38,083 nucleotides of DNA from Syntrophobacteraceae bacterium (GCA_031292215.1 JARLHO010000177.1:1-38083), one strand, 5' to 3'; shown: positions 17,658 to 36,713, counted from the first letter of the stretch. The notes: generated from the letters alone by a model not told the origin. Numbers and translations: made by a program.

Positions 17658-17693
17658 TTGCGTTGCAGGGAAAAAGAGAAAAGGAGTTTAGTT

Positions 17694-19913
17694 ATGTCCA
17701 GGTTAGTCGCTTTTGCAGCGATCCAGGGAGCTTACAATATAGTTTCCAAAGCCGAAGGCAAGTTCAAGCAGGCCATGGATAAGTACGGCCCGAACCAGCC
17801 TCTGGAATTCCCCAATACGGCTTATTACCTTCCCGTTATTTATTCGATCCTGGGTATCAAGGTCGAAAAACTGGCCGATGCCGAGCCGGTAATGAAGAAG
17901 TGCCGCGAGCTTCTTCCCCCGCACGTAAAGCTCGAACACAACATCCACCTTCCCTACCTGGGGGGGACCCTGGATGCCGGTATGGCAGCAATTCTGGCCG
18001 AAGAAGTTGTCGAGGCGATCCGCTACGTCGAGACGCCCAATTTTTATACGCTGGGCGAGGACTGCGATCCGGCCAACGGCAAGGTCTGGCTGGGCGCTGC
18101 CGACGACACGATCATGAGAAAGCGCGGCGTCGAATTCGTCGACGGATCGGCCCCCGGTTTTGCGGCCATCGTCGGCGCGGCCCCCACCCCGGCTATTGCC
18201 AAGCAGATCGCCGAGGAATACCAGAAAAAGAACCTCTATATTTTCATGGCAGCCAACCAGAACGGCACCTCGTTTGCCGAGCAACTGGTGGAAGCGGGTG
18301 TTGAGATCGGCTGGGGCACGCGTCTTGTGCCTTTTGGGCCGGACATCTCCGGGGCGGTCTTTGCTCTTGGTTTTGCAAACCGCGCGGCCATGGCCTTCGG
18401 CGGTGTAAAGCCCGGCGATTACCAGTCGATTCTTAAATACAACAAGGACCGCATCTTCGCGTTCGTAAACGCCTTTGGCGAAGTAAACGCGGAGTGGGCG
18501 GCAAACGCCGCCGGGTGTATCAACTGGGGTTTCCCGACCATTGCGGATACCGATATCCCCGAGATCAAGCCCTATGGCGTTTGCACCTACGAACACGTGG
18601 TATCTAGCGTTCCCTACGACCAGATGACCGCAAAGTCGATCGAGGTTCGCGGACTCAAGGTAAACATTACCGAGATACCGATCCCTCTTGCCTACGGTCC
18701 GGCTTTTGAGGGCGAGCGCGTACGAAAAGACGACGTCTACCTGGAGTGCGGCGGCGGAAAGACTCACTGCTGCGAACTGGTTAGAATCGCTGCGATGGAC
18801 GCTGTGGAAGACGGCAGAGTCGAGGTTATCGGCCCTGACGTCAAAGACATAAAGCAGGGTTCGAGGCTTCCGATGGCGGTGCTCGTTGAAGTCGCGGGCC
18901 GGAAGATGCAGGAAGATTATGAACCGATCCTCGAGCGGCAGATGCACCACCTGGTAAACTATGCCCAGGGCATCATGCACATCGGCCAGCGCGACATTGC
19001 CTGGTATCGGATCGGCAAGCAGGCTGTAGATAAGGGTTTTACCCTGGAACACATCGGTAAAATCCTGCACGCGAAATACCACCAGGATTTCGGGGCTATT
19101 TTCGACAAGTGCCAGGTAAAGATTTACACTGAAGAAGCCAAGGTCACCGAGATGCTGGGCGTTGCGCGCAAGGCTTACAAGATCCGTGACGAGCGCATCG
19201 AAGGCATGACCGACGAAGCCTGCGAGACCTACTACTCGTGCACGCTGTGCCAGTCTTTCGCGCCGACCCACGTCTGCGTGATCAGCCCGGAGCGCACCGG
19301 ACTTTGCGGGGCTTATAACTGGCTTGACTGCAAGGCCTCCAACGAAATCAATCCCACCGGTCCCAACCAGCCGGTCCTTAAGGGCGAAACCCTGGATGCG
19401 AAGCTTGGCAACTGGAAGGGTGTAAACGATTTCGTCTACAAGGCTTCCAGGCAGTCGATTGCGACCTACAATTTCTACAGCCTGGTATACGACCCGATGA
19501 CCACCTGCGGTTGCTGCGAGTGCATTGCGGCGGTTCTTCCGATGTGTAACGGCATCATGTCGGTAAACCGCGACTATACGGGCATGACCCCGAGCGGTAT
19601 GAAATTCACCACGCTTGCCGGCACGATCGGCGGCGGTCTGGTGACCCCCGGGTTTGTTGGCCACAGCAAGTACAACATCACGCAGCGAAAATTCATCGTT
19701 GGTGACGGAGGCCTTCAGCGGCTTGTGTGGATCCCCAAGATTTTGAAGGACGAGCTAAAGGACAGGCTTCTTAAGCGCGGTGAGGAAATCGGCATTCCAA
19801 ACTTCATCGACATGATCGCCACCGAGGAAAACGGCACCACGGAAGACGAAGTTTACGCGTTTCTCGAAAAAGTGGGACATCCCGCTTTGACGATGGAAAG
19901 CATTCTTGGCTGA
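17694..19913 (+). CDS. acsB: Acetyl-CoA synthase (CODH/ACS beta subunit)
   Basis: Makes acetyl-CoA from CO, a corrinoid-bound methyl group and CoA at the Ni-Ni-[4Fe-4S] A-cluster. A-cluster ligands are complete: Cys516, Cys519, Cys528 and Cys538 for the cubane (CTLC...C...C spacing as in Moorella), and the Cys605-Gly606-Cys607 motif for the distal nickel. The 739-residue length corresponds to the three-domain bacterial enzyme, with the N-terminal CODH-binding domain that short archaeal CdhC lacks. I chose ATG at 17694 (MSRLVAFAAIQG), with AAAGGAG upstream, over an in-frame start 36 nt earlier. It lies 91 nt after cooS. Confidence 0.97.
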   Translation: MSRLVAFAAIQGAYNIVSKAEGKFKQAMDKYGPNQPLEFPNTAYYLPVIYSILGIKVEKLADAEPVMKKCRELLPPHVKLEHNIHLPYLGGTLDAGMAAILAEEVVEAIRYVETPNFYTLGEDCDPANGKVWLGAADDTIMRKRGVEFVDGSAPGFAAIVGAAPTPAIAKQIAEEYQKKNLYIFMAANQNGTSFAEQLVEAGVEIGWGTRLVPFGPDISGAVFALGFANRAAMAFGGVKPGDYQSILKYNKDRIFAFVNAFGEVNAEWAANAAGCINWGFPTIADTDIPEIKPYGVCTYEHVVSSVPYDQMTAKSIEVRGLKVNITEIPIPLAYGPAFEGERVRKDDVYLECGGGKTHCCELVRIAAMDAVEDGRVEVIGPDVKDIKQGSRLPMAVLVEVAGRKMQEDYEPILERQMHHLVNYAQGIMHIGQRDIAWYRIGKQAVDKGFTLEHIGKILHAKYHQDFGAIFDKCQVKIYTEEAKVTEMLGVARKAYKIRDERIEGMTDEACETYYSCTLCQSFAPTHVCVISPERTGLCGAYNWLDCKASNEINPTGPNQPVLKGETLDAKLGNWKGVNDFVYKASRQSIATYNFYSLVYDPMTTCGCCECIAAVLPMCNGIMSVNRDYTGMTPSGMKFTTLAGTIGGGLVTPGFVGHSKYNITQRKFIVGDGGLQRLVWIPKILKDELKDRLLKRGEEIGIPNFIDMIATEENGTTEDEVYAFLEKVGHPALTMESILG

Positions 19914-19921
19914 TCAAACGT

Positions 19922-19951
19922 CCGGGCGGGGGGCTTTTTGCCTTCGCCCGG
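19922..19951 (+). promoter_or_regulatory. Intercistronic hairpin between acsB and acsC
   Basis: CCGGGCG...CGCCCGG, a 7-bp stem around a 16-nt loop that itself contains T5. It starts 8 nt after the acsB stop. It could cause partial termination or mark an RNA processing site that sets lower acsC/acsE levels. Confidence 0.5.
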
Positions 19952-19993
19952 TCTCAATATCAGAAATCGAACCTATAGCAGGAGAAGACGCAC

Positions 19994-21346
19994 ATGGGTC
20001 TTACCGGGATTCAAATCTTTAAATTGCTGCCCAAGACAAACTGTGGCGAGTGCGGGGTTCCTACCTGCCTGGCCTTTGCGATGAACCTTGCCGCAGCCAA
20101 GGCCGAACTTGATAGCTGTCCCTACGTGTCGCAGGAAGCCAGGGACAAACTGGCTTCCGAATCCGCCCCTCCGATTCGGCCGCTAACGATAGGAACGGGT
20201 GAGTATGCCGTAAAAGTCGGCGGTGAGACCGTGCTGTTTAGACATGAGAAGACCTTTGTAAACGCGCCGGGTCTTGCCGTACTGGTTGCAACCGATGAAG
20301 ACGCGGCTTCGGTTTCCGGAAAGATCGAGCGGTTTAAAAAAGCTCAGTACGATCGCGTTGGCCTGAAGCTTCGGGCCGAGATGTTTGCGATAAAAGACGC
20401 GGGCGGCAATGCGGATGCTTTTTGCGCTCTTGCCAAAAGGGTGGTCGACGAAGTCGGCGCCTCGATGATTTTTATCTCCGAATCGGTTGATGTTCTGACT
20501 ACTGCGGCAGATAAGTTTAAGGACAAAAAGCCGCTGCTCTACGCTGCGACAGAAGCGAACGCCGAAGCGCTTGGAAATCTTGCCAAAGCCGCCGAATGCC
20601 CGGTTGCGGTTAAAGGCGATGGCACGATAGAGAGTGTAATCGCCATTAGCGAAAAACTCTCCGCGCTCGGTGTAAAGGACATAGTGCTCGACACCGGTTC
20701 GCGAAATCTCAAGAAGGCCTTCGAAGAGCAGATTCTTATCCGCCGCTCGGCCCTGAAGGACAGGTTCCGCCCGCTGGGATTTCCGACCATCATTATGGCA
20801 AATGAGATGGGCGATGGGTTAATGGAAGAGGCGCTGGTGGCTGCCACCTTCATTGCCAAATACGGCGCTCTGATTGTTATGAGCGATATCGAGCCTCACG
20901 TTCTTTTCCCGCTTCTTCTGGAGCGACTTAACATCTACACCGACCCGCAGCGACCGATGACCGCCGAGCAGGGTATCTACCCGATAAACAATCCGGACGA
21001 GAATTCTCCGGTGCTCGTAACGTGTAACTTCTCGCTCACCTACTTTATCGTCTCGGGCGAAGTCGAGGGGAGTCGGGTTCCGTCCTGGCTGCTCGTTCAG
21101 GACACCGAGGGACTTTCGGTCATGACCGCCTGGGCGGCTGGAAAGTTTTCGGGGGAATCGGTTGGCACGTTCATCAACAAGTGCGGGATAAAGGACAAGA
21201 TAAAGCACCAGAACGTGATCATCCCGGGGTATGCCGCGGGAATCAGCGGCGAGTTGGAAGAGGAACTCGGAGCGGGCTGGACCGTTTCGGTGGGCCCAAG
21301 AGAAGCTAGCCAGATTCCAAAATTCCTCAAGAGTTTCAAAGCGTAG
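19994..21346 (+). CDS. acsC: Corrinoid iron-sulfur protein large subunit (CODH/ACS gamma)
   Basis: Large subunit carrying cobalamin and the [4Fe-4S] cluster that keeps it reduced. The N-terminal cluster domain has Cys17, Cys20, Cys25 and Cys42 (NCGECGVPTCLAF...DSCPYV), the same positions as in Moorella AcsC. The middle TIM barrel and C-terminal corrinoid-binding domain follow (VIIPGYAAGISGELEEELG). Length is 450 residues. GGAGAAG precedes ATG. It partners with acsD, which is placed at the other end of the operon. Confidence 0.97.
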   Translation: MGLTGIQIFKLLPKTNCGECGVPTCLAFAMNLAAAKAELDSCPYVSQEARDKLASESAPPIRPLTIGTGEYAVKVGGETVLFRHEKTFVNAPGLAVLVATDEDAASVSGKIERFKKAQYDRVGLKLRAEMFAIKDAGGNADAFCALAKRVVDEVGASMIFISESVDVLTTAADKFKDKKPLLYAATEANAEALGNLAKAAECPVAVKGDGTIESVIAISEKLSALGVKDIVLDTGSRNLKKAFEEQILIRRSALKDRFRPLGFPTIIMANEMGDGLMEEALVAATFIAKYGALIVMSDIEPHVLFPLLLERLNIYTDPQRPMTAEQGIYPINNPDENSPVLVTCNFSLTYFIVSGEVEGSRVPSWLLVQDTEGLSVMTAWAAGKFSGESVGTFINKCGIKDKIKHQNVIIPGYAAGISGELEEELGAGWTVSVGPREASQIPKFLKSFKA

Positions 21347-21362
21347 ACTGGAGGCCAAGTTA

Positions 21363-22247
21363 ATGAAGCTGATAGGTGAAAACCTAAACATTATGAGCAA
21401 GAAGTACGGCGCAGCGCTAAAGGCCAAAGAGGCCAAACCGCTTCAGGAGCTTGCCATCGAGCAGGCCAAGGCCGGGATGGACTATGTTGACCTAAACATC
21501 GGTCCTGCCAGCAAGACCGGCGTGGACCTTATGACGTGGCTGGTTCCGGTCATCGAGGAAGTCGTAGATATTCCTCTTGCCCTGGACACCTCGAACGTCA
21601 AGGCCATAGAAGCGGGGTTGAAGGCGTGCAAGAAGCATCGGCCGCTCATCAATTCGATCATGGTCAGGCCGGAGAGAATGGAAGCTCTTTTGCCGCTTGC
21701 GGCACAATATGACGCCGAGTTCGTAGGACTTCTGTGGGGCCCCGAGGGCATGCCCAGGGATGAAAACGAGCGCGGCGCCCTGTGCGCGGAGCTGGTGTTC
21801 AAGGCGACGGGCGAATTCGGCATAAAGCCGGAACGAATCTTTGTCGACCCTATCCAGACGCCGGTAAACGTGCAGCAGATCCAGATCATGAGCGTTTTGG
21901 AATTCATGAAGATGTTCGCAGACATAGCCCCCGGGTGCAGAAGCACCATCGGGCTTTCGAACGTCTCCAACGGCCCTCCGGATCACCTGCGTCCGATCCT
22001 TAACCAGGTCATGCTGATCATACTCAAGCGCCATGGAATGTATTCGGCCATCGTGGACACCTACGATACGATGCTCCATGAGATCGCAAGGGATAAGCAC
22101 CCCGGCCTGGAAGCCCTGGTGCACAAGGTCGAGGACGGAGAGGCCGTCGATATGACGCATCTCTCCGATGAGGAGCGCAGTTTTGTAAAGACGGCCAAAG
22201 TTATCATGGGCCAGGCGCTCTACTCCGATTCGTGGCTTGAAATCTGA
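21363..22247 (+). CDS. acsE: Methyltetrahydrofolate:corrinoid iron-sulfur protein methyltransferase
   Basis: Pterin-binding TIM-barrel enzyme that moves the methyl group from methyl-H4folate to Co(I) of AcsC/AcsD. Visible family blocks are LIGENLNIMSKKY, MDYVDLNIGPASKTG, IPLALDTSNVKAIEAGL, FVDPIQTPVNVQQ and IGLSNVSNGPPDHLRP, which include the conserved Asp and Asn that line the folate site. ATG at 21363 has GGAGG upstream and gives 294 residues; a longer frame reaching back into acsC is not credible. It follows acsC by 16 nt and is the last gene of the operon. Confidence 0.96.
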   Translation: MKLIGENLNIMSKKYGAALKAKEAKPLQELAIEQAKAGMDYVDLNIGPASKTGVDLMTWLVPVIEEVVDIPLALDTSNVKAIEAGLKACKKHRPLINSIMVRPERMEALLPLAAQYDAEFVGLLWGPEGMPRDENERGALCAELVFKATGEFGIKPERIFVDPIQTPVNVQQIQIMSVLEFMKMFADIAPGCRSTIGLSNVSNGPPDHLRPILNQVMLIILKRHGMYSAIVDTYDTMLHEIARDKHPGLEALVHKVEDGEAVDMTHLSDEERSFVKTAKVIMGQALYSDSWLEI

Positions 22248-25539: not shown

Positions 25540-25911
25540 TTAACATCGCGGTTCCAAAGCGGCGTTTACTCTAAACATCGCTTTTAACTGAGTCTTAAAT
25601 TCGGAACGGCGTTGTTCAAAGCGTATTCCGCACCGCCTTGTTTGAGGATGGCTCCACGAATTTTCGGGCGCCTCCAAATCGTACATCACGGTGGATTCGA
25701 CCCGGTTCATGCGCGGTGAATCCAATCCGAATATGCTGATGCTCACTGGACCGGTATCCAGCTTTCCGGTGGCCAGATACTGAACGCAGATACCACACTG
25801 GCTTGCATCCAACACTCTGCCAACGATTACTCCCGCATCGGGTATCACAAAAGCGGCAAAAACCTCTTCGCGGATTTCAAATCGTTTGTGCTTTCTCCGC
25901 TCTCGGTGCAC
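25540..25911 (-). CDS. PilZ-domain protein (probable c-di-GMP receptor)
   Basis: Small cytoplasmic protein of about 123 residues. Both PilZ c-di-GMP contact motifs are visible: an RxxxR block (ERRKHKRFEIRE) and DASQCGI (D/NxSxxG) about 30 residues later, followed by beta-strand-rich sequence ending in CGIRFEQ. It is therefore likely to bind c-di-GMP. I prefer the GTG at 25911, 4-5 nt after a run of seven G on the coding strand that acts as Shine-Dalgarno. A frame opening at 25992 would add 27 residues that do not look like PilZ sequence. Two homopolymer runs lie at 25916-25922 (7) and 25963-25970 (8). The epimerase gene lies upstream in the same orientation. Confidence 0.75.
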   Translation of the reverse strand: MHRERRKHKRFEIREEVFAAFVIPDAGVIVGRVLDASQCGICVQYLATGKLDTGPVSISIFGLDSPRMNRVESTVMYDLEAPENSWSHPQTRRCGIRFEQRRSEFKTQLKAMFRVNAALEPRC

Positions 25912-26193
25912 AACACCCCCCCTGGCCGTCCACAACCCGGCAATCCACGTAACGCTACAAGACCCCCCCCGAAACTGGCGAAAAGCATGCAATTTAGATG
26001 CCTATCTGTTTCAGGCGAGGTAAATATATGATGTAACGGAGCATCTTGTCATGCATCGCTCGTGCGGCAAGGAGCGCAAGTGTAAAGAAAACCAACATGC
26101 AAAGTTTCAAAAAACGGAGCTAAATCGTATTGGATACCGGTTTAGGGGTTGCAATCAAGTTCGTAAAGATTTCCGACGCGCCGGCACTTGAGG

Positions 26194-27213
26194 CTAGACG
26201 CGATAATATCGCCTGTACCAGTCTACGAAAAGCGAGACCCCCTCGCGCAGGGGCGTTTCGGGGTGGAAGCCAAATTCCCTGGCAGTGTCTTCGATATCGG
26301 CGAAAGTCGCCCGTACATCGCCCGGCTGCATGGGGAGAAACTCCTTTATAGCCTTTAGCCCCAGGCAGTCTTCTATGGCCGATATAAATTCCATAAGCTG
26401 AGCGGGTTTATTGTTTCCGATGTTGTAGAGCTTAAAGGGGGCAAAGCTTGAGCCGGGGTCCGGGGCGAGTCCATTCCACTCGGGGTTGGGGGCGGGAGGA
26501 CGGGCGACTATGCGCATGAGAGCATCGATCACGTCGTCGATATAGGTAAAATCGCGGATCATTTTGCCGTCGTTAAAAATCTGGATCGGTTCCCGGGCAA
26601 GTATTGCGCGGGTGAAAAGAATGGGGGCCATGTCGGGGCGTCCCCAGGGGCCGTAGACGGTGAAGAATCGAAGGCCGGTGCAGGGGATCGAGTAGAGATG
26701 CGAGTAAGCATGGGCCATGAGTTCGTTTGCTTTTTTGGTGGCCGCATACAGAGAAACGGGGTGGTCGACGTTATCGTGTATCGAAAAGGGTATTTTTTCG
26801 TTTCCGCCATAGACCGAGCTCGATGAGGCAAAGACCAGGTGTTTTACCTCGGTGCGTCTGCAGGCTTCGAGAAGATGTAGAAACCCGTCGATATTGCTCT
26901 GGACGTAGGCTTTCGGATTAACGAGCGAATAGCGAACGCCGGCCTGGGCCGCCATGTTCACTACGAGCTCGAAGGAATACTTTGTGAAGATATCCTCGAT
27001 TCCAAGATGGTCCAAGAGGTCGAGCTGGTGAAAGCAAAACCCGGGAAATTTGGCGAGAAAAGCGAGCCGGTCCCGCTTTAGCCGCACATCGTAATAGTCG
27101 TTGACATTGTCTAGACCAACCACTTGCCATCCCGCCCGAAGCATCTTTAAAGACAGGTGAAAACCGATAAAACCTGCCGCCCCCGTAACCAGGGCGGGTT
27201 TTTGAAGATCCAT
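26194..27213 (-). CDS. NAD-dependent sugar epimerase, UDP-glucuronate 4-epimerase-like
   Basis: Extended short-chain dehydrogenase/reductase that inverts a nucleotide-sugar hydroxyl. The NAD site is TGAAGFIGFHLS; further signatures are FASSSSVYGGN (catalytic Ser), LYAATKKANELMAHAY (Tyr-x3-Lys) and TGLRFFTVYGPWGRPDMA. The last block and overall resemblance point to UDP-glucuronate to UDP-galacturonate epimerases. I start at ATG 27213 (MDLQKPALVTG, AAAGGGA upstream), giving 339 residues. It should supply an acidic sugar nucleotide for the exopolysaccharide encoded 4 kb away (inference). Confidence 0.88.
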   Translation of the reverse strand: MDLQKPALVTGAAGFIGFHLSLKMLRAGWQVVGLDNVNDYYDVRLKRDRLAFLAKFPGFCFHQLDLLDHLGIEDIFTKYSFELVVNMAAQAGVRYSLVNPKAYVQSNIDGFLHLLEACRRTEVKHLVFASSSSVYGGNEKIPFSIHDNVDHPVSLYAATKKANELMAHAYSHLYSIPCTGLRFFTVYGPWGRPDMAPILFTRAILAREPIQIFNDGKMIRDFTYIDDVIDALMRIVARPPAPNPEWNGLAPDPGSSFAPFKLYNIGNNKPAQLMEFISAIEDCLGLKAIKEFLPMQPGDVRATFADIEDTAREFGFHPETPLREGVSLFVDWYRRYYRV

Positions 27214-27502
27214 TTTGATTTCCCTTTCGATTTTTCCTTCGGCGCGTCCCTGGAAAAAGATAGCCGTCCGCAGCGTCAATTTTGCCCTCATCGGAGTTGA
27301 TTTGCAATGATTTCCATGCGGTTGCAGGTGCTCTTCCCGGGAGCCCGGGCAATTAGTCTCGGGGATGAATTACTAATCCGTAATTAAGTGAAGCTTCGGG
27401 ATTGAAATTTCGGCCTTGGCAACCGTTGTTCCCCATGGAGGCCGGGCGGTCAAACGTATGTCCCGTGCGCTTCCGTGAGGGTCTTACGGGGAGCTGTTTC
27501 CC

Positions 27503-27518
27503 TGGCATCGCTTTTGCT
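27503..27518 (+). promoter_or_regulatory. Sigma-54 promoter
   Basis: TGGCATCGCTTTTGCT matches the sigma-54 consensus TGGCAYR-N4-TTGCW at all but one position. The invariant GG (27504-27505) and GC (27516-27517) are separated by exactly 10 nt. Transcription should start about 12 nt further, just before the riboswitch. It requires an enhancer-binding activator that is not in the window. Confidence 0.8.
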
Positions 27519-27548
27519 TTTCCATCGTTCAACGATATTAGGCACCAC

Positions 27549-27640
27549 ACCATAAAGGGCAAACTGCGCGAAAGCGCAGGACGCAAAGTTACTGGCCTAA
27601 GTCCCGGAGCATCGGGATACGGTCGCAGGACTGCTGGGCG
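27549..27640 (+). promoter_or_regulatory. Class I c-di-GMP riboswitch (GEMM-I)
   Basis: The conserved landmarks appear in order: GGGCAAAC, a GC stem closed by a GAAA tetraloop (TGCGC-GAAA-GCGCA), GGACGCAAAG, TGGCCTAA, a second stem (TCCCG/CGGGA), and the receptor-like ACGGTCGCAGGACTGC. This is the class I c-di-GMP aptamer layout. It starts about 20 nt after the expected sigma-54 transcription start and lies 58 nt upstream of the secreted repeat protein gene, which it should control. Boundaries are approximate. Confidence 0.88.
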
Positions 27641-27648
27641 GATGCAGC

Positions 27649-27693
27649 ACCTCCTTAGGACGCTGGGTTTGCCAAGCGACTCTTCGAGGAGGT
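27649..27693 (+). promoter_or_regulatory. Shine-Dalgarno-sequestering expression platform
   Basis: ACCTCCTT (27649-27656) can pair over 8 bp with the ribosome site GAGGAGGT (27686-27693), 4 nt before ATG. The upstream strand GCTG...CAGC overlaps both the aptamer end and the anti-SD segment, so ligand binding could switch between the two pairings. This points to translational control; the direction (on or off) cannot be read with certainty. Confidence 0.6.
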
Positions 27694-27697
27694 CAAG

Positions 27698-29884
27698 ATG
27701 AAAAGATCCATCGGATACATTGGGGCAATCCTAATCGTTTCCCTGGCGCTGGTTGCGGGTTCTTCGGCCCGGGCCCGGGCAGCGCAAGCCGTACTGGCCT
27801 GGAACGCTGCAAGCGACCCATCGGTCACCGGATACAACGTCTATTTCGGAACTCAAAGCGGTAACTACCAAACGCCGGTAAACGCCGGTGGCAGCGCCAC
27901 CTATACGGTAACGAATCTTTCGGCTTCACAGACCTGCTATTTTGCCGTAACGGCGTATTCGAGCGCCACGGAAAGCGCTTTTTCCCAGGAATTGGCCTGT
28001 AACTTCATAACGGCCCAGGCGGGCGCCAACGGACAGATCACCCCCGCTGGAGTGAGCTCTGTTGCCGGCGGCGGCTCTCAGACCTACTCGATAGTCCCAA
28101 ACCCCGGGTATCAGATAGCTCTTCTTGAGGTAGACGGCCAGCAGGTGAGTCCAACAGCGACTTACACCTTTTCCAATGTGACGAGCTGCCATACAATATC
28201 TGTCACCTTTTCACCCGTAAATTCGCCCGTAAATTTCACTATTTCGGCCCAAAGCCAAGCGGGCGGCGCCATTTCTCCTTCGGGCCCGGTGAGTGTGGCC
28301 CCAGGAGCCAACCAGACCTATACGATAAGTCCGGCCGCCAATTACGCGATTGCAACCGTTACGGTCGACGGGGCATCGGTGGGCGCGGTATCAAGCTACA
28401 CATTCAACGGCGTAGAGTCAAATCACACCATCGCGGCGGCCTTTTCGCCCATCCAGAGCTACACGATTTCGACGAGTTTCCAGGGCGGCGGGTCGATATC
28501 TCCTGCCGGCTCGGTAATCGTTATTTCTGGAAATAACGCCCAGTTCGCGATAACGGCCAACACCGGCTACCAGGTCTCAAACGTCGTAGTAGACGGTAAA
28601 TCGGTCGGCGCGGTTTCGAGCTACACATTCACCGGAGTCTGCGCCAATCACAGCATACAAGCCTCTTTTGCCTCCCAACAATGTGTAATAACCGCATCCG
28701 CCCAGGGCAGCGGAACCATCTCGCCGTCGGGGGCAAATCCGTTTTCCTCCGGGACTAACGTGTCCTATTCGATGACGCCCGCTTCCGGCTACACCCTAAG
28801 CGCGGTTCTAGTCGATGGCAACCAGGTGTCGAGCGGGCAAACGCAGTCGGCCTCGGCAAAGGTCGGAGGCGGCGCCGGTGCGGTCGCTACCAATTACACT
28901 TTTCAGAATGTGGCCGGCGATCATACGATTGAGGCGCTCTTTTCGCCCACCTCTTTGGTGGTAGCAGACGCAGGACCCGATCAGGTCGTAAAAAGCGGGG
29001 CGACCGTAACGCTGGACGGCTTGAATTCGACGGCTTCGGGGGGGCGAATCGCTTCCTACAAGTGGACACAGGTCCTGGGCCCCTCGGTTGCGTTGTCAAA
29101 CCCTTCCTCGCCTCAGTGCACCTTCACGCCTCAAAATATTTCCTCGGCTGCCTCTCTTGGCTTTGCGCTCACAGTCACGAACGCAGCGGGAGTCAGCAGC
29201 AGTTCCACCTGCCTGGTAAACGTCAGTTCGACCGGCAAAGGCCCCGCGGTAAACGCAGGCCCCGACCAGACGGTTTCGGCCTACACCAATGTGACCCTGG
29301 ATGGATCGTCCTACTCCGACTCCTACGGCACGATAGCAACCTATGCGTGGACACAAATCTCGGGGCCAACCGTTTCGATCCTTAACGCCGATACCCCCAA
29401 TGGTTCCTTTGTGGCGCCCGATCCCGGCGCCGGCGGCGAAACCCTCGTGTTCGAACTGAGCGTACAGGACCAGTACGGGCTGGAAGCACGGGGCCTGTGG
29501 ACGGTAAACGTAGTGGGCGACTCCCAGCCGCCGGTGGCCAATGCGGGCGATAACCTGAGCGCGGTTCCCATGAGTACTGTGACCCTTAAGGGTACGGGTT
29601 CGCTAGACCCCACGGGGTCCCCCGACACCTACCGGTGGACACAGATAAGCGGCGTCCCGGTGACCCTTTCCGACCCGACATCGGCTGCCCCGACCTTTAC
29701 CGCCCCCACCTGGACAACCGATCAGGGGGCGCAACTGGTGTTTATGCTAACCGTTACCAACCCCGTAGACCAACTGAGCGCAACGGCGCAATGCACGGTT
29801 ACGGTCCAAAACACGAGCCCGGTTCTGGCGAGTGTGAGGCCCAATTGGTCGTTCGCCTCAGGTTTTGCCGCAGCCAAACGGTAG
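27698..29884 (+). CDS. Secreted FN3 / InlB-repeat / PKD-like repeat protein (putative adhesin)
   Basis: A 728-residue exported protein. A signal peptide (residues 1-29, ending ARARA) is followed by a fibronectin type III domain (about 30-105). Four divergent InlB-B-type repeats come next (about 105-418), each with the pattern GxIxPxG...G.nqtYtisP..GY.i..v.vDG..vg...sYTF..v..nHtI.a.Fs. Three PKD/REJ-like beta-sandwich domains close the protein (about 420-705), with VADAGPDQ/VNAGPDQ/ANAGDN openings and YxWTQ(I/V)xGPxV cores. No membrane anchor, LPXTG or PEP-CTERM sorting signal is visible. Such proteins serve as extracellular adhesins or matrix components. GAGGAGGT lies before ATG. The sigma-54 promoter and c-di-GMP riboswitch upstream tie it to the planktonic/biofilm switch. 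Confidence 0.85.
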   Translation: MKRSIGYIGAILIVSLALVAGSSARARAAQAVLAWNAASDPSVTGYNVYFGTQSGNYQTPVNAGGSATYTVTNLSASQTCYFAVTAYSSATESAFSQELACNFITAQAGANGQITPAGVSSVAGGGSQTYSIVPNPGYQIALLEVDGQQVSPTATYTFSNVTSCHTISVTFSPVNSPVNFTISAQSQAGGAISPSGPVSVAPGANQTYTISPAANYAIATVTVDGASVGAVSSYTFNGVESNHTIAAAFSPIQSYTISTSFQGGGSISPAGSVIVISGNNAQFAITANTGYQVSNVVVDGKSVGAVSSYTFTGVCANHSIQASFASQQCVITASAQGSGTISPSGANPFSSGTNVSYSMTPASGYTLSAVLVDGNQVSSGQTQSASAKVGGGAGAVATNYTFQNVAGDHTIEALFSPTSLVVADAGPDQVVKSGATVTLDGLNSTASGGRIASYKWTQVLGPSVALSNPSSPQCTFTPQNISSAASLGFALTVTNAAGVSSSSTCLVNVSSTGKGPAVNAGPDQTVSAYTNVTLDGSSYSDSYGTIATYAWTQISGPTVSILNADTPNGSFVAPDPGAGGETLVFELSVQDQYGLEARGLWTVNVVGDSQPPVANAGDNLSAVPMSTVTLKGTGSLDPTGSPDTYRWTQISGVPVTLSDPTSAAPTFTAPTWTTDQGAQLVFMLTVTNPVDQLSATAQCTVTVQNTSPVLASVRPNWSFASGFAAAKR

Positions 29885-30440
29885 CCTTTAAGGAAGAGGC
29901 GGTTGTCCCCGTAACCCCCGGAGGGCGCGCTGGAAAAAAGAGCGCAGCGCCACCCTGCGGGGGGGGGGCGAGACCGTTTGGAAATGAGTTAAAAAAATAG
30001 CCCCCACCACTTTGTAAACCAACGGAAAACCATACCCTCTACGTCCGAAAAAGACGCTTTCCATGAAACATGGGCTTTAGGCCAAAAAAATTGAGTTTGA
30101 GGGGTTTTTGCGGACCCCGGGGAAGTAGCATAGTCTCCTAAAGTATGGTATTGCGTGTAAACTCTTGCCCCGATAGGGGTTTTGCAAAAAAATCTTCTGC
30201 AGATTGCGTCAACTTAACTGCATGATACCAAAGGATGTTATCAATGATAAGGTATTTAAAATACCCTGTTTCTAATACTTCCGTTCACCCTTTACCTTCC
30301 AGGATAACACTCTATTTTGATGCTCAAGGTGCAACTTGTGGCGCCTGCTACCTCAAGGGCGATCATTTTCTAATCTATTCGCGGATGTAATAGAGTTGGC
30401 GGAGCCATAGGTAAACCTTGAAGTGAGGGAGCCCAAAGTT
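29885..30440. other. AT-richer intergenic region
   Basis: No supported gene. It contains a G10 run (29959-29968), an AT-rich palindrome GGTATTTAAAATACC near 30250, and a small CCCC-GATA-GGGG stem with T4 (30168-30183). Base composition is visibly more AT-rich than the flanking coding DNA. The promoter for the nuclease-like gene should lie here, but I cannot place it. Confidence 0.5.
30168..30183 (+). terminator. Small candidate intrinsic terminator
   Basis: CCCC-GATA-GGGG followed by TTTT. The stem is short, and it lies 284 nt past the adhesin-like gene, so this is tentative. Confidence 0.3.
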
Positions 30441-30986
30441 ATGATGTCTCGCGGTAAATCCAATGCCCTGGTAATTGTTCTGGTGCTTTTTACGCTCTTT
30501 TGGTTATTGCCTTCGTCCTGCTTTGCCTATATGGGCAGGGTCGAAAATGTCGACGGAGGGGATTTGCTTACGGTTTCGGCAAATGGCGCTTCGCGAAAAG
30601 TTCGTCTCTTTGGCATTGCATGCCCTCTTTTCGGGCAGCCGTTTCACGGCAAGGCGATGTTTATGACCAAATTTCTTTCGCTTAAAAGAAACGTGGATAT
30701 TACCCCTGTTTTTACGGATAATTACGGCATAGAAAATTCGCTTGTACGAGTCGAGGGATCGGGGGCCTATCTTAACGACAGACTTCTTGGATACGGGCTT
30801 GCGTGGGTTAAGCCCTGCGAGAGCAAATCTCATCTGTGCGTGGAATGGAAAAAGCTCGAGGGAGTGGCCCAGATGAACTTTATTGGACTTTGGGCTCAGC
30901 CGCCCGCGATTGCCCCGTGGGAGTGGCAAAAGGCGCAAAGGATGCTGATACTCGATCGCATGAAGTCGACAGAAAAAAAGAAATAG
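30441..30986 (+). CDS. Exported staphylococcal-nuclease-fold protein, probably catalytically inactive
   Basis: A signal peptide (hydrophobic ALVIVLVLFTLFWLL, cleavage near CFA) is followed by an SNase-type OB fold: GRVENVDGGDLLTVSANG, RKVRLFGIACP, LNDRLLGYGLAWV, C-terminal GLWAQPPAIAPWEWQK. Active SNases read GIDxPE and DxYGR at the metal and catalytic positions; here these are GIACPL and DNYGIE. The catalytic Glu, one metal Asp and the second Arg therefore appear lost, while the first Arg (VRL) is kept. It may act as a binding protein. I start at ATG 30441 (GAGGGAG 9 nt upstream) rather than at a GTG 18 nt earlier. The gene stands alone, between the adhesin-like gene and the exopolysaccharide operon. 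Confidence 0.75.
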   Translation: MMSRGKSNALVIVLVLFTLFWLLPSSCFAYMGRVENVDGGDLLTVSANGASRKVRLFGIACPLFGQPFHGKAMFMTKFLSLKRNVDITPVFTDNYGIENSLVRVEGSGAYLNDRLLGYGLAWVKPCESKSHLCVEWKKLEGVAQMNFIGLWAQPPAIAPWEWQKAQRMLILDRMKSTEKKK

Positions 30987-31526
30987 CTTGTAATTTGCGG
31001 TAATTCATGCCTTGGCGCTTAGGGCAAACGATATATTTAAGCGCGCCGGCGCCCCAAGAGCTCAATTTGGGAATTTCTCTTACGACACAATCTCTACGTT
31101 CCACCCAACCTGCAAATGAAGGTTTCTACAAGCTGGGCCGCCGCTTCGTTGGATGCGGTTTGAACGAGGATGAAACTTGGAGTTTCATAAGAGAGAGCGA
31201 CGGGAGAGTAAATCCCCCCGGCCCCCCTTTGCAAAAAAGGGGGGCGATTGAGCCTTGCCCCTCCATGCGCGTCATTACTAGCGGCCCGTCATTGCAAAAG
31301 GAAATAGCCATAAAATTGAACCCTTGGCGGCATGCGGCGCGGACTGCCGTCCGTGATGCCGCAGGCGCAGCCAGTCGGGCAGGTCGGGGCTTGGCAACCC
31401 GTCTGCGGCGACACGCCGCTGAAGTTTCATAAGAGCGGCGCCGCCAAGTCCCGGGGCGCCTGGTAAGACTTGAGCCTCCTGCGCCCGTTCCTACCCGATT
31501 TACCTTTTCCATGAAGAGATGAAAAA
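30987..31526. other. Repeat-containing gap before the exopolysaccharide operon
   Basis: No supported gene. It holds a half GTTGGG element (31099-31110), copy D of the long dispersed repeat (31152-31330) and a GC-rich stretch with several small hairpins (31330-31450). An operon promoter is expected near 31440-31510; a GG-N10-GC spacing at 31469-31482 exists, but its boxes are poor. Confidence 0.6.
31152..31330. repeat. Long dispersed intergenic repeat, copy D
   Basis: The same orientation and order of blocks as 9974-10150, including the exactly shared 44-bp core at 31201-31244 and the trailing CTCCATGCGCGTCA, CGTCATTGCAAAA and ATAAAATTGA blocks. Differences are scattered single substitutions and one 2-nt indel. 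Confidence 0.85.
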
Positions 31527-33059
31527 ATGGCCGAGTCCGAATCTTCGGAGCGAAACGTCCCTGTTGCTACCAATGCGGCCGGTTCTGCCGAACGCATGTT
31601 TATAGTTCGGGAAGCAAGGCCTACCAACAACCTTCGCGACTACCTGTCCATATTTTTTAAACATCAGAAGACTATAGTGGTGTCTTTTTTGGTGTTTAGC
31701 CTCCTGGGTTGCCTCATGTCGCTGGTATACAAAAGGGTCCTCTACACGCCAAGGTTTGAGGCCAAGTCTTCGCTTCTGGTAAAGTTTGGCTGGGAGAATT
31801 TTTATCCGGATCCATCTCTTGGCAAGCGCGAGGCGCCGGCCGTAGACCAGGCGGAGATGCTCGGGGCCGAAATCAGTATTCTTAAGAGCCGGGGGCTAAA
31901 GGAAAAAATAATCGATTCTTTTACGCCTGAAGCCATTTTCCCGTCTCTTGCCAACAGAAGCTTTACCGGTATTAGCAAAAGAGACCAGGCACTTTTGCTG
32001 CTCGAAAAATACATAAAGGTTAAACCGGCAAAGGGCGGTGTTGTGGACGTAACCTTTGAAGGAAGCGATTCCAAAAGTGCTGCCGCCGTAGTAAATGAGC
32101 TCGTTCGAGACTATATCGATAAGCGCGGTGAAATCTATAAGGATCCCAAGTCGGCGCAGTTTCTCCAAAATAAGGTCGACTACTACCGAGCAAAGCTTTT
32201 GCAGTCACGAAACGACATGAAGGCGTTTTCTGAAAAAACCAAGATCATCGCCTTCGACCAGCAGCGCAACATGGTCCTTGAGCGCCGTTCGCACCTAAAC
32301 ATAGCCTTAAACAATACGGCGAACGGAATAAAGGAAGTGGAGCAAACGATCGCCGAACTGGAAAAAGAATTGCAGTCGATTCCGCGCTCCGAGCTGACCG
32401 CTGCGGCTTCTAGCCGCGCGGGGGACGCCCAGTCCCGGTTGCTCGCCCTAAAGCTCCAGGAGCAGACGCTAAGCGCGAAGTTTAAGGAAGGCAACCCGCT
32501 GATCGCAACTGTTCGCGCAAAGATTGCAACTGTTGAAGATTACATCAAGAAAAATTCAGCTGAAAATCCCGATATTGCCTCGGCGGACCCCGTGTACCAG
32601 GAAATCCAAAAGCAGATCCTGGGCGGCAAGGCGAAGTTAAGCGCGTTAACCGTGAGGTACACCGGCACGCAGAGTCAGCTTGGCGATATAAACAACGAAC
32701 TCGCCTTCTTTGAAGGAAAGGAAAACCAATACCGAGGGCTGGCCTCGGCCATAGCATCCAACAAGCGGATGTATGAGGACTACCGGCGAAAACTCGAAGA
32801 AGCCAAGGTGTATAACGAACTGGGCCGCGATAAGATGACCAGTGTAAGTGTCATCGAGGCCGCCGCGGCGCCGATATCTCCTGTAAACCAGCCCACGCCC
32901 CTGGCCCTTTTGTTTGCCGCATCCCTTATCTTTTCTCTTTTTGCGAGCCTTGGGATCGCCTACCTGTTGGAGAGCAACAAACAGGTGATGAGCACGGAGA
33001 TGGAGGCCGAAAAGAGATTGGAGCTTCCCGTGTTGATCACCATTCCGATCAAGAATTAA
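31527..33059 (+). CDS. Polysaccharide chain-length determinant / Wzz family protein
   Basis: Polysaccharide co-polymerase that sets chain length and helps export in Wzx/Wzy-type exopolysaccharide systems. It has a cytoplasmic N-terminus, a first membrane helix (TIVVSFLVFSLLGCLMSLVY, about residues 50-70), a long periplasmic region with heptad-rich coiled coils, and a second helix (PLALLFAASLIFSLFASLGIAYLL, about 463-486) preceded by the family's PxxPxxP-like PVNQPTP. No kinase domain is fused to it; the ATPase is a separate gene (34730-35461). Length is 510 residues. The ribosome site is modest. It is the first gene of the exopolysaccharide operon and lies 11 nt before the next. Confidence 0.88.
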   Translation: MAESESSERNVPVATNAAGSAERMFIVREARPTNNLRDYLSIFFKHQKTIVVSFLVFSLLGCLMSLVYKRVLYTPRFEAKSSLLVKFGWENFYPDPSLGKREAPAVDQAEMLGAEISILKSRGLKEKIIDSFTPEAIFPSLANRSFTGISKRDQALLLLEKYIKVKPAKGGVVDVTFEGSDSKSAAAVVNELVRDYIDKRGEIYKDPKSAQFLQNKVDYYRAKLLQSRNDMKAFSEKTKIIAFDQQRNMVLERRSHLNIALNNTANGIKEVEQTIAELEKELQSIPRSELTAAASSRAGDAQSRLLALKLQEQTLSAKFKEGNPLIATVRAKIATVEDYIKKNSAENPDIASADPVYQEIQKQILGGKAKLSALTVRYTGTQSQLGDINNELAFFEGKENQYRGLASAIASNKRMYEDYRRKLEEAKVYNELGRDKMTSVSVIEAAAAPISPVNQPTPLALLFAASLIFSLFASLGIAYLLESNKQVMSTEMEAEKRLELPVLITIPIKN

Positions 33060-33070
33060 AGAGGCGCAAA

Positions 33071-34618
33071 ATGTACCTCGATTATTTCAAATTAAAGAAA
33101 AGTCCTTTCCACATAACTCCGGATCCCGAATTCCTGTTTCTTAGCCAGAGTCATAAGGAAGCCTCGGCTTCGATTTACTACGGTATTGAAACCAAAAAAG
33201 GATTCATTGCCGTAACCGGGGAGGTGGGAGTGGGGAAGACGACTATTCTTCGCTCCTACCTGGAAGGAACCGACCCGGATAAGATTAGAATAGTCTATAT
33301 ATTTAACGCCGCCCTTTCCTTTGACCGGCTGCTCGATCAGATTTGTTCCGAGTTTGGCATCCGGACCGCAGGCAAAGACTCTGCGGAACTCGTTGACCTG
33401 CTGTTTAATTATCTTATCGAGGAATACAAAAAGGATCGTAACGTCGTTTTGATAGTCGACGAGGCGCAGAACATGCCGGTGGAAACCCTCGAGCGGCTGC
33501 GGATGCTCTCCAACCTTGAAACCTCGCAGGATAAACTCTTACAGATAATTCTTGTCGGTCAGCCCGAGTTTGAGGCCAAATTGGATCTGCCCGAGCTGCG
33601 GCAGTTAAAACAGCGGATGGCGATTCGCTCGCGCATCGAACCGCTTACCAGCGAGGAAAGCTTCGCGTATATCAATCACCGGCTTATGAAGGCATCGTTA
33701 TTCCACAATCCGATTTTCACCAAAAAGGCGCTTACGCGCATCATAAAAGAGTCAAAGGGCATTCCGCGAACGATAAACATTCTGTGCGACAATGCGCTTG
33801 TAACGGGCGCGGGCTACCGGTGCAAGCCGGTGGATGAAAAGATTGCAGAAGAGGTGATTAGAGATTTTCGTGGACCGCGGCCACCTCGGGGCTTGCGGTG
33901 GAAAATTATCTGGGCGCCGGTTCTTTCGGGTTTTATGGTGGCGGCTTTCCTGGTTTTTCGAACCATTGTGCCCGATCCGGCAAAGCCTTCGCCGGAAAAA
34001 CGAAAAATTGTGGAAAAGCTCCACGAGCCTTTGCCTGCCCATGTTCACAAAGATAGAGTAAAGATCGTGAGGGCTGTCCAAAGTTTAGCCGTGAAAATAA
34101 AAGAGCCTGCGGTTGCTAAAGTCCATCGTGACAAAATGGGGGGGACGGACCCCGGTGAGGGGGCCGGAGAAAATGTCGCAAAGCCTGCGGCTCAAGAGGT
34201 GGCCGAGAAGAGTAATGGCGCGCCTTCCCCCGAGGCCGGCAAAGCGGCGCCCGCCCCGGAGATGAGCAAATCCGCGCCTTCCCCGGAGGTAAAGCGGGCG
34301 GGAAACGGTTTTCCCTCGGCGCGATCCGAGCCTTCCGCACCGATTGCTCCGAGGAGCGGTGGCGATAGAGCCCCGTCCGCAAAACCCCCGGGGATCGATC
34401 CCGCACCGGCCAAGCCCGATGTCTTGCCCGTAAAAAAGGCGTCCGGGGGGCCATCGTCTCAGCTCGTGGTGGTAAGGTCGGGCGATAGCGTGAGCAAGCT
34501 GTTGATGGGCATCTATGGCATTGTCAGCCCCGCCATGCTGGCCTCTTTTAAACAGCTTAATCCTCAGGTTAAGGACATCAACAAAATCTCTGTTGGGGCA
34601 AAGATCCTTCTTCCGTAG
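33071..34618 (+). CDS. ExeA/GspA-like AAA ATPase with membrane anchor and C-terminal LysM domain
   Basis: Residues 1-265 are an ExeA-type AAA ATPase: opening MYLDYFKLKKSPFHITPDPEFL, Walker A GEVGVGKTT, Walker B VVLIVDEAQNM, and QPEFEAKL/LKQRMAIR sensor blocks. This is the form found in type II secretion ExeA and in exopolysaccharide/PEP-CTERM loci. A membrane helix (IWAPVLSGFMVAAFLVF, about 276-294) leads to a long Pro/Ala/Lys-rich linker with repeated APSPE-type motifs (about 300-460). The C-terminal 50 residues resemble LysM (VVRSGDSVSKLLMGIYG...LNPQVKDINKISVGAKILLP). The layout implies a cytoplasmic motor tied through the inner membrane to peptidoglycan, perhaps opening the wall for the export machinery (inference). 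Confidence 0.87.
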   Translation: MYLDYFKLKKSPFHITPDPEFLFLSQSHKEASASIYYGIETKKGFIAVTGEVGVGKTTILRSYLEGTDPDKIRIVYIFNAALSFDRLLDQICSEFGIRTAGKDSAELVDLLFNYLIEEYKKDRNVVLIVDEAQNMPVETLERLRMLSNLETSQDKLLQIILVGQPEFEAKLDLPELRQLKQRMAIRSRIEPLTSEESFAYINHRLMKASLFHNPIFTKKALTRIIKESKGIPRTINILCDNALVTGAGYRCKPVDEKIAEEVIRDFRGPRPPRGLRWKIIWAPVLSGFMVAAFLVFRTIVPDPAKPSPEKRKIVEKLHEPLPAHVHKDRVKIVRAVQSLAVKIKEPAVAKVHRDKMGGTDPGEGAGENVAKPAAQEVAEKSNGAPSPEAGKAAPAPEMSKSAPSPEVKRAGNGFPSARSEPSAPIAPRSGGDRAPSAKPPGIDPAPAKPDVLPVKKASGGPSSQLVVVRSGDSVSKLLMGIYGIVSPAMLASFKQLNPQVKDINKISVGAKILLP

Positions 34619-34729
34619 CAGGAAAACTCCGTATCTCAAATGGCCGGTAAAATCCGTATTTGCTGATCATTCTTATAGATAATAAGGAAGAGAAACGGGG
34701 CCTATGCTTGTTTATAGAGGAGCGAGGCC

Positions 34730-35461
34730 ATGAGCAAAATCTACGAAGCGCTGCAAAACGTTCACCGGGAAAAGAAGGGGAAAGGGCCATTCGAACGAAT
34801 CGCACCGGTTCCTTTCGCCCCGCTGGAGGCCGCCGCCTTAGGATTTGAAGACGAGATGCTGAGCCTCTATAAGCTCATAGAGGCCCTTTTGCCACATTTC
34901 CCATCAAGGATTATCCAGTTCATCGGCGCAAGGGAAGGGGAGGGGACTTCCACGGTTTCCAGGCAGTTTGCCCGGGCAGCGGCCGATCTGATAGGCCATT
35001 CGGTGCTGCTGGTTGACGCGGACCGTCTCAATCACAGCCAGGATCTTTTCTTTGATATCCAAAGCGGCATCGGCTGGGTCGACGCGCTACGAAGCGGAAG
35101 CAATATCGAGGACTCCTTTCAACGTGTGGGGCAGTCTAAATTGTTTGTAAGCCGGTGTGGCAATTCCTCTGTTTCCACGCCGGAAATCTTTAACTCCTCG
35201 TTTGACCGGATGTGCGAAAAGCTCAGGGCAAATTTTGAGCTGGTTTTGATCGATTCAGCACCTTTGGCGATTTCACCCGACGGTCTTGCCATCGCTTCCA
35301 AAGTGGATGGAGTAGTGCTGGTGGTGGAGGCGGAAGGGTCGAGGTGGCAAACTGTGCGGCGCCTGCGCGACAGTATCTACAGGGTGGGGGGGAGTATGCT
35401 GGGGGTTGTTTTGAATAAAAGACGCTATTATATCCCTCAGTCTATATACAGGCGTTTATAA
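34730..35461 (+). CDS. CpsD/CapB-like (BY-kinase family) P-loop ATPase
   Basis: Cytoplasmic partner of Wzz in exopolysaccharide assembly. The MinD/BY-kinase fold is visible: a Walker A region (GAREGEGTSTVSRQFA), Walker A' VLLVDADR, Walker B LVLIDSAPL, and VDGVVLVVEAEGSRW near the end. The C-terminus carries a tyrosine cluster (RRYYIPQSIYRRL), which would be autophosphorylation sites. The Walker A lysine of GEGKST is Thr here. It opens with MSKIYEALQ, as in PEP-CTERM/XrtA-type loci. Length is 243 residues. GAGGAGCGAGG precedes ATG; the gene follows the ExeA-like gene by 111 nt. Confidence 0.83.
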   Translation: MSKIYEALQNVHREKKGKGPFERIAPVPFAPLEAAALGFEDEMLSLYKLIEALLPHFPSRIIQFIGAREGEGTSTVSRQFARAAADLIGHSVLLVDADRLNHSQDLFFDIQSGIGWVDALRSGSNIEDSFQRVGQSKLFVSRCGNSSVSTPEIFNSSFDRMCEKLRANFELVLIDSAPLAISPDGLAIASKVDGVVLVVEAEGSRWQTVRRLRDSIYRVGGSMLGVVLNKRRYYIPQSIYRRL

Positions 35462-35462
35462 G

Positions 35463-35504
35463 CCCGTCCGCTTCGCCCCGGGACGGGGTTTGAGCGAAAA
35501 TCGT
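35463..35504. repeat. Fragment of the long dispersed repeat, copy E
   Basis: GCCCGTCC...GGGACGGGGTTTGAGCGAAAATCG resembles the sequence entering copy A (CCCCGTCCTGGGACGCGGTTTGAACGAGAATG, read in pieces at 9963-9993). It starts one base after the stop codon of the ATPase gene and spans the possible TTG start of the sugar transferase. Confidence 0.5.
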
Positions 35505-35546
35505 TTGGAACACCAGATTATTTACCTTAAAAAGCGGAACAAAATC

Positions 35547-36713
35547 ATGAAAGACCTATCGTCGGCGGCGGTCGCCAAGTTTGCGCCCGTATGCGAAAGA
35601 ACCTTTTCCGGGCGCCGGAGCGAGTGCGATGATCTCTATACGATCGAATACAACGAGGAGGCTTTCCAAAAAATTTTGGTGTTGGAGCGAAAAAGGTCTG
35701 AACGGTCGAAAAGACCCTTCGTTTTGATGCTGCTCGATGTGGCCACCCGGGACGAGTCCTGCGGCGCCATCCGGGAAAAGGTATTAAGCTGTCTTGCGGA
35801 AACCAAAAGGGACACAGACATTCTGGGGTGGTACCGGCAAGATAGCATAGCGGGCATCATTTTTACCGAGATATCGAGTTCGAACGGTCGGGCCCCATCC
35901 GTGCCCATTGCAGAAAGAATAAAGGCCGGGTTGGCTGGTAAACTTGGGCCGGAGGGAGTCAATCGGGCCCCTATCAGCTTTTTCAATTTTTCGGAAAAGT
36001 CCCGGCCACAGGTTTTATCGGGCCGCCTCACCCTTTATCCGGACATTCGAGAGCGGCTTAATGCGCACAAAAGGGGGCTGAGTATCAAACGAGCAATCGA
36101 TGTATGCGGGGCGCTTATCGGCCTTGTGTTGCTCGCGCCGTTTTTTCTTGTCATTTCCGCAATGATCAAGCTTACTTCGAAGGGTCCTGTCTTTTTCCGC
36201 CAGGAACGGGTGGGCCAATACGGCGATACTTTTATGTTTTTAAAATTCCGGTCGATGTACGTCAATAACGATCCCTCGATTCACAAGGAGTATACGAAAA
36301 GCCTTATCCTTGCGGAGGAAAAAGGCGCGGGCAACGGCGCCCCTGCGGAGGGCGCGGTTTTTAAGATCCAAAACGACCCTCGGGTCACCCCGGTTGGAAG
36401 GTTTCTAAGGAGATCGAGCCTCGATGAGATTCCCCAGTTGATAAACGTTTTGGCAGGTCGCATGTCGCTTGTCGGGCCGCGCCCTCCCATCCCCTATGAG
36501 CTTGAAAACTACGATCTTTGGCACTGGAGGCGAGTGCTTGAGATGAAACCGGGCATAACCGGAATGTGGCAGGTCGGAGGGAGGAGCAGAACTACATTTG
36601 ACGAAATGGTGCGCCTTGACCTCAATTACATGACCCAATGGAGCCTCCGGCTCGATATGAAAATACTTTTCATGACGCCTCTGGCCGTTTTGAGCGGCAA
36701 GGGGGCGTATTAA
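35547..36713 (+). CDS. Initiating sugar-phosphate transferase with GGDEF-like N-terminal domain
   Basis: The C-terminal part (about 185 residues before the end to the stop) is a bacterial sugar transferase (WbaP/PssY/EpsL type) that loads the first sugar-phosphate onto undecaprenyl phosphate. It has KRAIDVCGALIGLVLLAPFF (membrane anchor), GPVFFRQERVGQYGDTFMFLKFRSM, FLRRSSLDEIPQLINVLAGRMSLVGPRPP and KPGITGMWQVGGRS. The N-terminal 150 residues follow a GGDEF-domain pattern (helix EEAFQKILVLERKRSERSKRPFVLMLLDV..., then RDTDILGWYRQDSIAGIIFTE where a cyclase would have RYGGDEFAVLLPE), so it is degenerate. I chose ATG 35547. An upstream TTG (35490) would add 19 residues, but that region overlaps a repeat fragment. 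Confidence 0.85.
   Translation: MKDLSSAAVAKFAPVCERTFSGRRSECDDLYTIEYNEEAFQKILVLERKRSERSKRPFVLMLLDVATRDESCGAIREKVLSCLAETKRDTDILGWYRQDSIAGIIFTEISSSNGRAPSVPIAERIKAGLAGKLGPEGVNRAPISFFNFSEKSRPQVLSGRLTLYPDIRERLNAHKRGLSIKRAIDVCGALIGLVLLAPFFLVISAMIKLTSKGPVFFRQERVGQYGDTFMFLKFRSMYVNNDPSIHKEYTKSLILAEEKGAGNGAPAEGAVFKIQNDPRVTPVGRFLRRSSLDEIPQLINVLAGRMSLVGPRPPIPYELENYDLWHWRRVLEMKPGITGMWQVGGRSRTTFDEMVRLDLNYMTQWSLRLDMKILFMTPLAVLSGKGAY

Follow-up and report, generated by a model that had tools for sequence, protein, structure and literature searches.

A conserved sigma-54 promoter stacked on a c-di-GMP-I aptamer and a predicted translational switch ahead of a secreted repeat protein gene in Syntrophobacteraceae

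The 38,083-nt stretch of DNA analysed here (the window, meaning the whole of that stretch) is one contig, contig 122, of a Syntrophobacteraceae draft genome of 4.89 Mb that is 97% complete. The gene of interest, with its start codon at 27698, encodes a protein with a hydrophobic, signal-like N-terminal segment and Pfam matches to K319L-like_PKD (2e-43), PKD_4 (7.9e-15) and, marginally, fn3 (4.4e-5; 24.1 bits against a cut-off of 25), while no NCBIfam match to a PEP-CTERM sorting domain was found on it (Table 1). In relatives, within the limits of their contigs, the genes mostly follow the order kinase, PilZ-like, epimerase, target, SNase-like, chain-length, ATPase and tyrosine-kinase. The target protein is likely to act in the matrix or at the surface because a signal-like, repeat-bearing protein heads XrtA-like polysaccharide genes in this largely kept order. 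An earlier note, made from the sequence of the window alone, had described the product as a secreted repeat protein of the adhesin or matrix type, and the signal-like start, the marginal fn3 domain, the four divergent repeats, the PKD repeats and the conservation of the target type across loci agree with that description. The PilZ-like neighbour, which has 55-67% identical copies at syntenic places, may be a second link to c-di-GMP, at the protein level. Elsewhere in the window, 14595-22247 holds a CO dehydrogenase/acetyl-CoA synthase gene set (delta, CODH, ACS, gamma and methyltransferase), which fits a syntrophic or sulfate-reducing lifestyle.

Table 1 Features of the leader, its target gene and the neighbouring genes, in window coordinates.
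Feature	Position	Strand	Basis
PilZ-like gene (c-di-GMP receptor fold, weak)	25540..25992	-	PilZ 16.8 bits, below the cut-off of 22.5
NAD-dependent sugar epimerase/dehydratase, divergent neighbour	26194..27291	-	domain match, synteny
Palindrome ATTAC-N6-GTAAT, putative enhancer (UAS) for a sigma-54 activator	27369..27384	.	motif counts; role inferred
Sigma-54 -24/-12 element TGGCATCGCTTTTGCT	27503..27518	+	sequence; score 14.6; conserved before 15 GEMM-I aptamers
P1 5' strand	27542..27552	+	core 27550-27552; imperfect extension 27542-27548 from folding only
c-di-GMP-I (GEMM-I) aptamer, G20 type	27548..27638	+	RF01051, 74.7 bits, E 4.9e-13
P1 3' strand	27635..27645	+	core 27635-27637; common to anti-sequestor arm
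Anti-sequestor 5' arm	27637..27648	+	slide test; register; outer extension 27633-27635 with 27675-27677
Anti-Shine-Dalgarno ACCUCCUU	27649..27656	+	anti-sequestor loop; sequestor 5' arm
Anti-sequestor 3' arm GCUGGGUUUGCC	27662..27673	+	folding; slide test; register in other genera
Shine-Dalgarno region GAGGAGGU	27686..27693	+	paired by anti-Shine-Dalgarno in sequestor; covariation
Secreted 728-aa target protein, fn3 + four divergent repeats + PKD repeats	27698..29884	+	Pfam, sequence
Polysaccharide genes: SNase-like, Wzz-like (XrtA chain-length type), XrtA-type ATPase, tyrosine-kinase-like, sugar transferase	30423..36713	+	domain matches, synteny

The leader of the target gene contains a well-preserved GEMM-I aptamer, as the earlier note had proposed. 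A covariance-model search with cmscan at the gathering threshold matched RF01051 over its full length (1-87), far above the cut-off of 35 bits, and this was the sole RNA family matched across the entire window. The GNRA loop on P2 and the core motifs GGCAAA, GACGCAAAG and GGCCUAAG are present within 27557-27601 and are invariant or nearly so across 11 homologues, and the core pairs of P1 are 100% standard in the same homologues, with C-G replaced by U-A in five of them. The position that sets ligand selectivity, assigned by reference to Vc2 and Gs1761 as Rfam column 11 (G20 of Vc2), is occupied by G27558 and not by the A of the cGAMP type. On its sequence, the aptamer is an ordinary c-di-GMP-I member of the G20 type, and c-di-GMP is its predicted ligand.

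The host genome (G000; other G numbers denote relatives and L numbers denote loci) encodes ~11 GGDEF domains and holds two GEMM-I aptamers, and at least one such aptamer is present in 25 of the 26 genomes of the family, which together supplied 86 other GEMM-I loci for comparison with that of the window. The second aptamer of the host genome, L002 (G000:C105:31695-31771), is of the other GEMM-I subtype, with GCC/GG instead of GGC/GC, and is followed by a small ORF and a FliD-like flagellar gene; loci resembling it occur in G018, G020, G021, G022 and G023.

Upstream of the aptamer, the sigma-54 element has T27503, GG at 27504-27505 and GC at 27516-27517, giving the exact GG-N10-GC spacing with near-consensus flanks, and transcription is expected to start near 27528-27530. 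We scored -24/-12 sites in a zone 25-85 bases before each aptamer with weights based on the published consensus. Only 0.24% of background 60-bp windows reach a score as high as that of the window's site, for which alone the shuffle p value is 0.01. A site scoring at least 14 precedes 10 of 51 aptamers in the subtype to which that of the window belongs, and none of 36 in the other subtype. These sites are located at -40 to -64 relative to the aptamers, and 15 loci have one once weaker sites are counted, while L015, L020 and L033 have a good site farther up, at about -200. The host genome encodes one RpoN and ~37 sigma-54 activators (Sigma54_activat domains).

The module is wider than first described, as it begins at a palindrome 118 bases before the promoter element that was absent from the earlier description. 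The window's copy is the only perfect one in the 4.89-Mb genome. With at most one mismatch the palindrome was found at 9/15 sigma-54 GEMM loci and 0/72 other GEMM loci (Fisher 1e-8), and with at most two mismatches at 14/15 and 2/72, respectively (Fisher 3e-13), although these values are optimistic because the motif was picked by eye on the same, related loci before counting. Its uniqueness in the genome and its restriction to sigma-54 loci are not products of that choice. A 6-nt spacer is preferred, other spacers yielding nothing comparable, and a scan of ten genomes for the palindrome followed by a strong -24/-12 site returned mostly GEMM-fn3 genes. In the host genome, no other perfect copy marks the activator's own promoter, and most near matches are not followed by a good -24/-12 site. 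We infer that the conserved palindrome is a putative upstream enhancer site for the sigma-54 promoter.

Gene neighbourhood in other genera, where orthologues of an NtrC-type protein adjoin GEMM-fn3 genes, points to a candidate for the protein that binds there. In G001, a 466-aa NtrC-type protein is encoded directly upstream of a palindrome-bearing GEMM gene, and its homologues, with one strong match per genome in 18 of the 26 genomes, also lie directly upstream of a GEMM gene in G003, G004 and G005 and within 3 kb of one in G012. This neighbourhood recurs in three to four genera; ~0.1 cases would be expected by chance (Poisson P ~8e-6). The window genome's single-copy homologue, G000:C107:4445-5791 (L209; 55% identical), is the best candidate to bind the palindrome; the GEMM genes beside the activator in G003 and G004 have no clear palindrome, which counts against the link. 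In the genus-level proteins GAFTGA is retained and a Ser occupies the site of the phosphorylated Asp in the receiver domain, as read by eye from an alignment that is missing some rows, and because of this replacement the activator is probably not switched by ordinary phosphorylation.

Between the aptamer and the start codon lies a platform that can form two mutually exclusive hairpins. The earlier note had recognised one of these, an 8-bp pairing of an anti-Shine-Dalgarno (anti-SD) sequence with the Shine-Dalgarno (SD) region, here called the sequestor. ACCUCCUU and GAGGAGGU form eight consecutive pairs, seven Watson-Crick and one G-U. The window's duplex alone is not significant against shuffles (p = 0.07), but across 33 loci the duplex reaches p<0.01 in 16, with a mean z of -2.5. 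Covariation in the sequestor of 11 genus-level homologues is 0.211 compared with 0.103 in shuffles (0/500 shuffles), and three pairs are altered on both sides, for example as GUCUCC with GGAGAU in L043, while the sequestor of L053 has 11 pairs. These counts are conservative because MAFFT misplaces the SD in L045, L046 and L049. The pairing is therefore real, beyond shuffles across loci and covarying, but as a description of the switch it covers only half of the platform, since the second hairpin, the anti-sequestor, buries the anti-SD. In the anti-sequestor, 87.5% of alignment cells are paired, compared with 20-46% when the arms are slid. Within the genus its variation is on one side only, and in other genera (L029, L032 and L004) arms of 12 nt with different sequence keep an identical register. 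The arms begin two bases before the aptamer match ends, and from this register it follows that the 3' strand of P1 falls inside the anti-sequestor. An H-type pseudoknot, in which the anti-SD loop would pair with the SD while the anti-sequestor is formed, was judged sterically poor, as there is no linker between the stem and the anti-SD.

Folding with and without the aptamer constraint, a check put forward in the earlier note, was done with ViennaRNA on the free leader and on the leader with aptamer and P1 formed, in a model without pseudoknots or strand-exchange kinetics. In the free leader, sequestor and anti-sequestor share the ensemble about half and half at 37 °C and 20:80 in favour of the anti-sequestor at 25 °C, with an SD accessibility of only 0.16-0.29. 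Formation of P1 shifts the ensemble to the SD-hiding hairpin, which then makes up 0.95-1.0 of it at two temperatures, with three 3' ends and with two parameter sets. Forcing P1 carries a modelled cost of ~5-10 kcal/mol, which would have to come from ligand binding. The orthologues L022, L017 and L043 show the same P1-dependent shift and L018 shows it partly. In contrast, the SD is predicted to be hidden whether or not P1 forms in L053, in L039 and at most of the loci from other genera, so that the thermodynamic argument for the sign of the switch rests on the window's clade. For that clade, folding predicts an OFF switch in which c-di-GMP represses translation. The earlier proposal that c-di-GMP gates translation is upheld in that the platform is conserved, but the predicted repression is not what a fit to c-di-GMP biology, as that note had it, would suggest for an adhesin.

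The model that we propose takes up the aptamer, promoter, palindrome, both hairpins and synteny, all supported by sequence comparison, and adds a presumed activator, ligand binding, switch sign and protein function. At the first gate, sigma-54 RNA polymerase would start near 27529 only with an activator on the palindrome, the single-copy NtrC-type protein being the best candidate. At the second gate, the leader would present the GEMM-I aptamer followed by the translational platform. Without ligand, the anti-sequestor (27633-27648 with 27662-27677) could form, holding the anti-SD in its loop and leaving the SD free. With c-di-GMP bound, P1 would be fixed and the anti-sequestor would lose its base, because the 3' strand of P1 belongs to it; the anti-SD would then pair with the SD and translation would stop. 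The resulting logic would be "activator AND NOT c-di-GMP", applied to a secreted repeat protein that heads an exopolysaccharide cluster. The earlier note had placed a sigma-54 element, an aptamer and the anti-SD pairing within 27503-27700 as two gates, one an activator for transcription and the other c-di-GMP for translation. The sequence there is as described, each of the three elements passes comparative tests, the partners that they need are encoded in the genome, and placement, spacing, SD-hiding helix and target type are conserved across loci; the two gates have the support of comparison, and the response to ligand is predicted. On balance we favour a two-gate unit with a sigma-54 activator and c-di-GMP-repressed translation as the probable reading. 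Its fuller form, a conserved two-input gate with transcription turned on by a dedicated, pseudo-receiver NtrC-type activator and translation of a matrix protein turned off by c-di-GMP, is more tentative.

The alternative that survives best keeps both gates and reverses the sign of the second, and we consider it rather unlikely. Here, the ligand-bound aptamer would stack on, or kinetically favour, a shortened anti-sequestor and leave the SD free, so that c-di-GMP would turn translation on, which is the response to high c-di-GMP that one would expect of a matrix protein. Vc1, which precedes the gbpA adhesin gene and is the most closely studied GEMM-I in such a place, is positively regulated by c-di-GMP according to the abstract of PMC4744006, and the anti-sequestor without its base can still hold ~10 pairs and forms first during transcription. 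However, the SD-hiding hairpin was dominant with P1 formed in every setting tried. The conserved UUUGCC (27668-27673) is complementary to GGCAAA in the aptamer core (27559-27564) and might serve as an anti-aptamer, but the probability of this pairing in the ensemble is 0.000, and we rejected that model; UUUGCC is already accounted for as part of the anti-sequestor arm, and the change at this place in L043 weakens the anti-aptamer pairing.

It is improbable that the promoter of the two-gate unit is instead a PEP-CTERM (PrsK/PrsR) promoter. The genome does encode PrsR (G000:C47; 612.9 bits against a cut-off of 502.6), XrtA-type ATPase and chain-length genes adjoin the target, and PEP-CTERM genes have sigma-54 promoters in the passages of PMC1569441 considered here. 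PrsR was nonetheless rejected as the activator at the palindrome, since its motif, as described in the text of that paper, is 17 nt ending in TTTACA and is unlike ATTAC-N6-GTAAT. The target, moreover, lacks a PEP-CTERM match.

We see still less room for a transcriptional riboswitch, acting through a terminator or Rho. Many GEMM-I riboswitches are terminator switches, but no terminator-like site was found in 27292-27720 on either strand, and a conserved element of this leader pairs and covaries with the SD. With Rfam column 11 taken as the selectivity position, G27558 is as in c-di-GMP types, and the c-di-GMP-I match is full. Sensing of 3',3'-cGAMP instead, as by some Geobacter GEMM-I RNAs (PMC8835794), is thus very improbable. 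An accidental sigma-54 match, with another promoter driving the gene and the riboswitch alone being real, would fit the weakness of a lone -24/-12 match in one genome but is the least probable of these readings given the alike position at 15 loci, the common palindrome and the absence of a sigma-70-like site in the intergenic region.

Both the aptamer class and its occurrence before fn3 proteins are already known, as the earlier note had stated for adhesins. In the abstract of PMC4744006, Vc1 before the gbpA adhesin gene of Vibrio cholerae is an ON switch with c-di-GMP. It resembles the window leader in aptamer class, in place before a surface or attachment protein and in control of the next gene, but it is activated by c-di-GMP where folding predicts repression here, and neither a sigma-54 promoter nor the palindrome belongs to that system as its abstract presents it. 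In Geobacter, GEMM riboswitches precede fibronectin type III proteins (PMC2996986; KN400_1971 in PMC13194489), sharing with the window the riboswitch family, a surface fn3 target and a related delta-proteobacterial setting, whereas the passages of those papers describe no sigma-54 element, enhancer or platform. PEP-CTERM systems have sigma-54 promoters before secreted matrix proteins in the corresponding passages (PMC1569441; pepA, PMC9850573), and likewise combine the promoter with an upstream activator site and nearby exopolysaccharide genes. They differ in the enhancer motif, and the window has a target without a PEP-CTERM tail and a leader with an RNA sensor. As summarised in PMC9262584, homologous, highly similar GEMM aptamers in a pair of cyclic-dinucleotide riboswitches act as ON or OFF switches depending on the downstream part, and the window platform differs in acting on the ribosome site. 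No description of a c-di-GMP or GEMM riboswitch combined with sigma-54 or RpoN was found in the titles, abstracts and passages of the open-licence literature. The stacked, conserved module of sigma-54 promoter, enhancer and riboswitch, together with the platform, appears to be undescribed there, in keeping with the earlier suggestion that the stacked control and the platform are the new part.

GEMM-I aptamers are common, but whether a given member represses or activates can rarely be predicted. Here, the aptamer, promoter, enhancer and platform are conserved genus-wide and both hairpins of the platform can be drawn pair by pair, which makes sign and logic testable with one reporter series, and a candidate activator can be named for the control of surface proteins in largely uncultured delta-proteobacteria. 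If true, the logic would be opposite to the usual rule, by which c-di-GMP favours production of the matrix, and the surface or matrix protein would be made only when two signals agree.

Other leaders in the family bear on these elements. In a paralogous leader before an fn3 gene, L147 (G023:C241, minus strand, ~850-1030 of the locus), the palindrome is still perfect and the promoter strong (score 16.6), but the aptamer has lost its core, GNRA loop and receptor and gives no Rfam match even at E 1, and the SD pairing is lost too. Such joint decay, seen in this one case, is expected if aptamer and platform cooperate. We also considered L147 as a GEMM variant for a new ligand and set this aside, as it is the single such sequence in 26 genomes and the SD pairing is lost as well; decay is likelier. 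A recurrent second target of the window's aptamer subtype, without close sigma-54 sites, is found at L009, L011, L021, L027, L040 and L081, where the aptamer precedes alike proteins that start with M-I-R-E-L and share an N terminus that is HDOD-like by eye. At L051 (G002:C1:3041694-3041895), a tandem pair of GEMM-I aptamers with 50 bases between them precedes a single lipoprotein-like gene.
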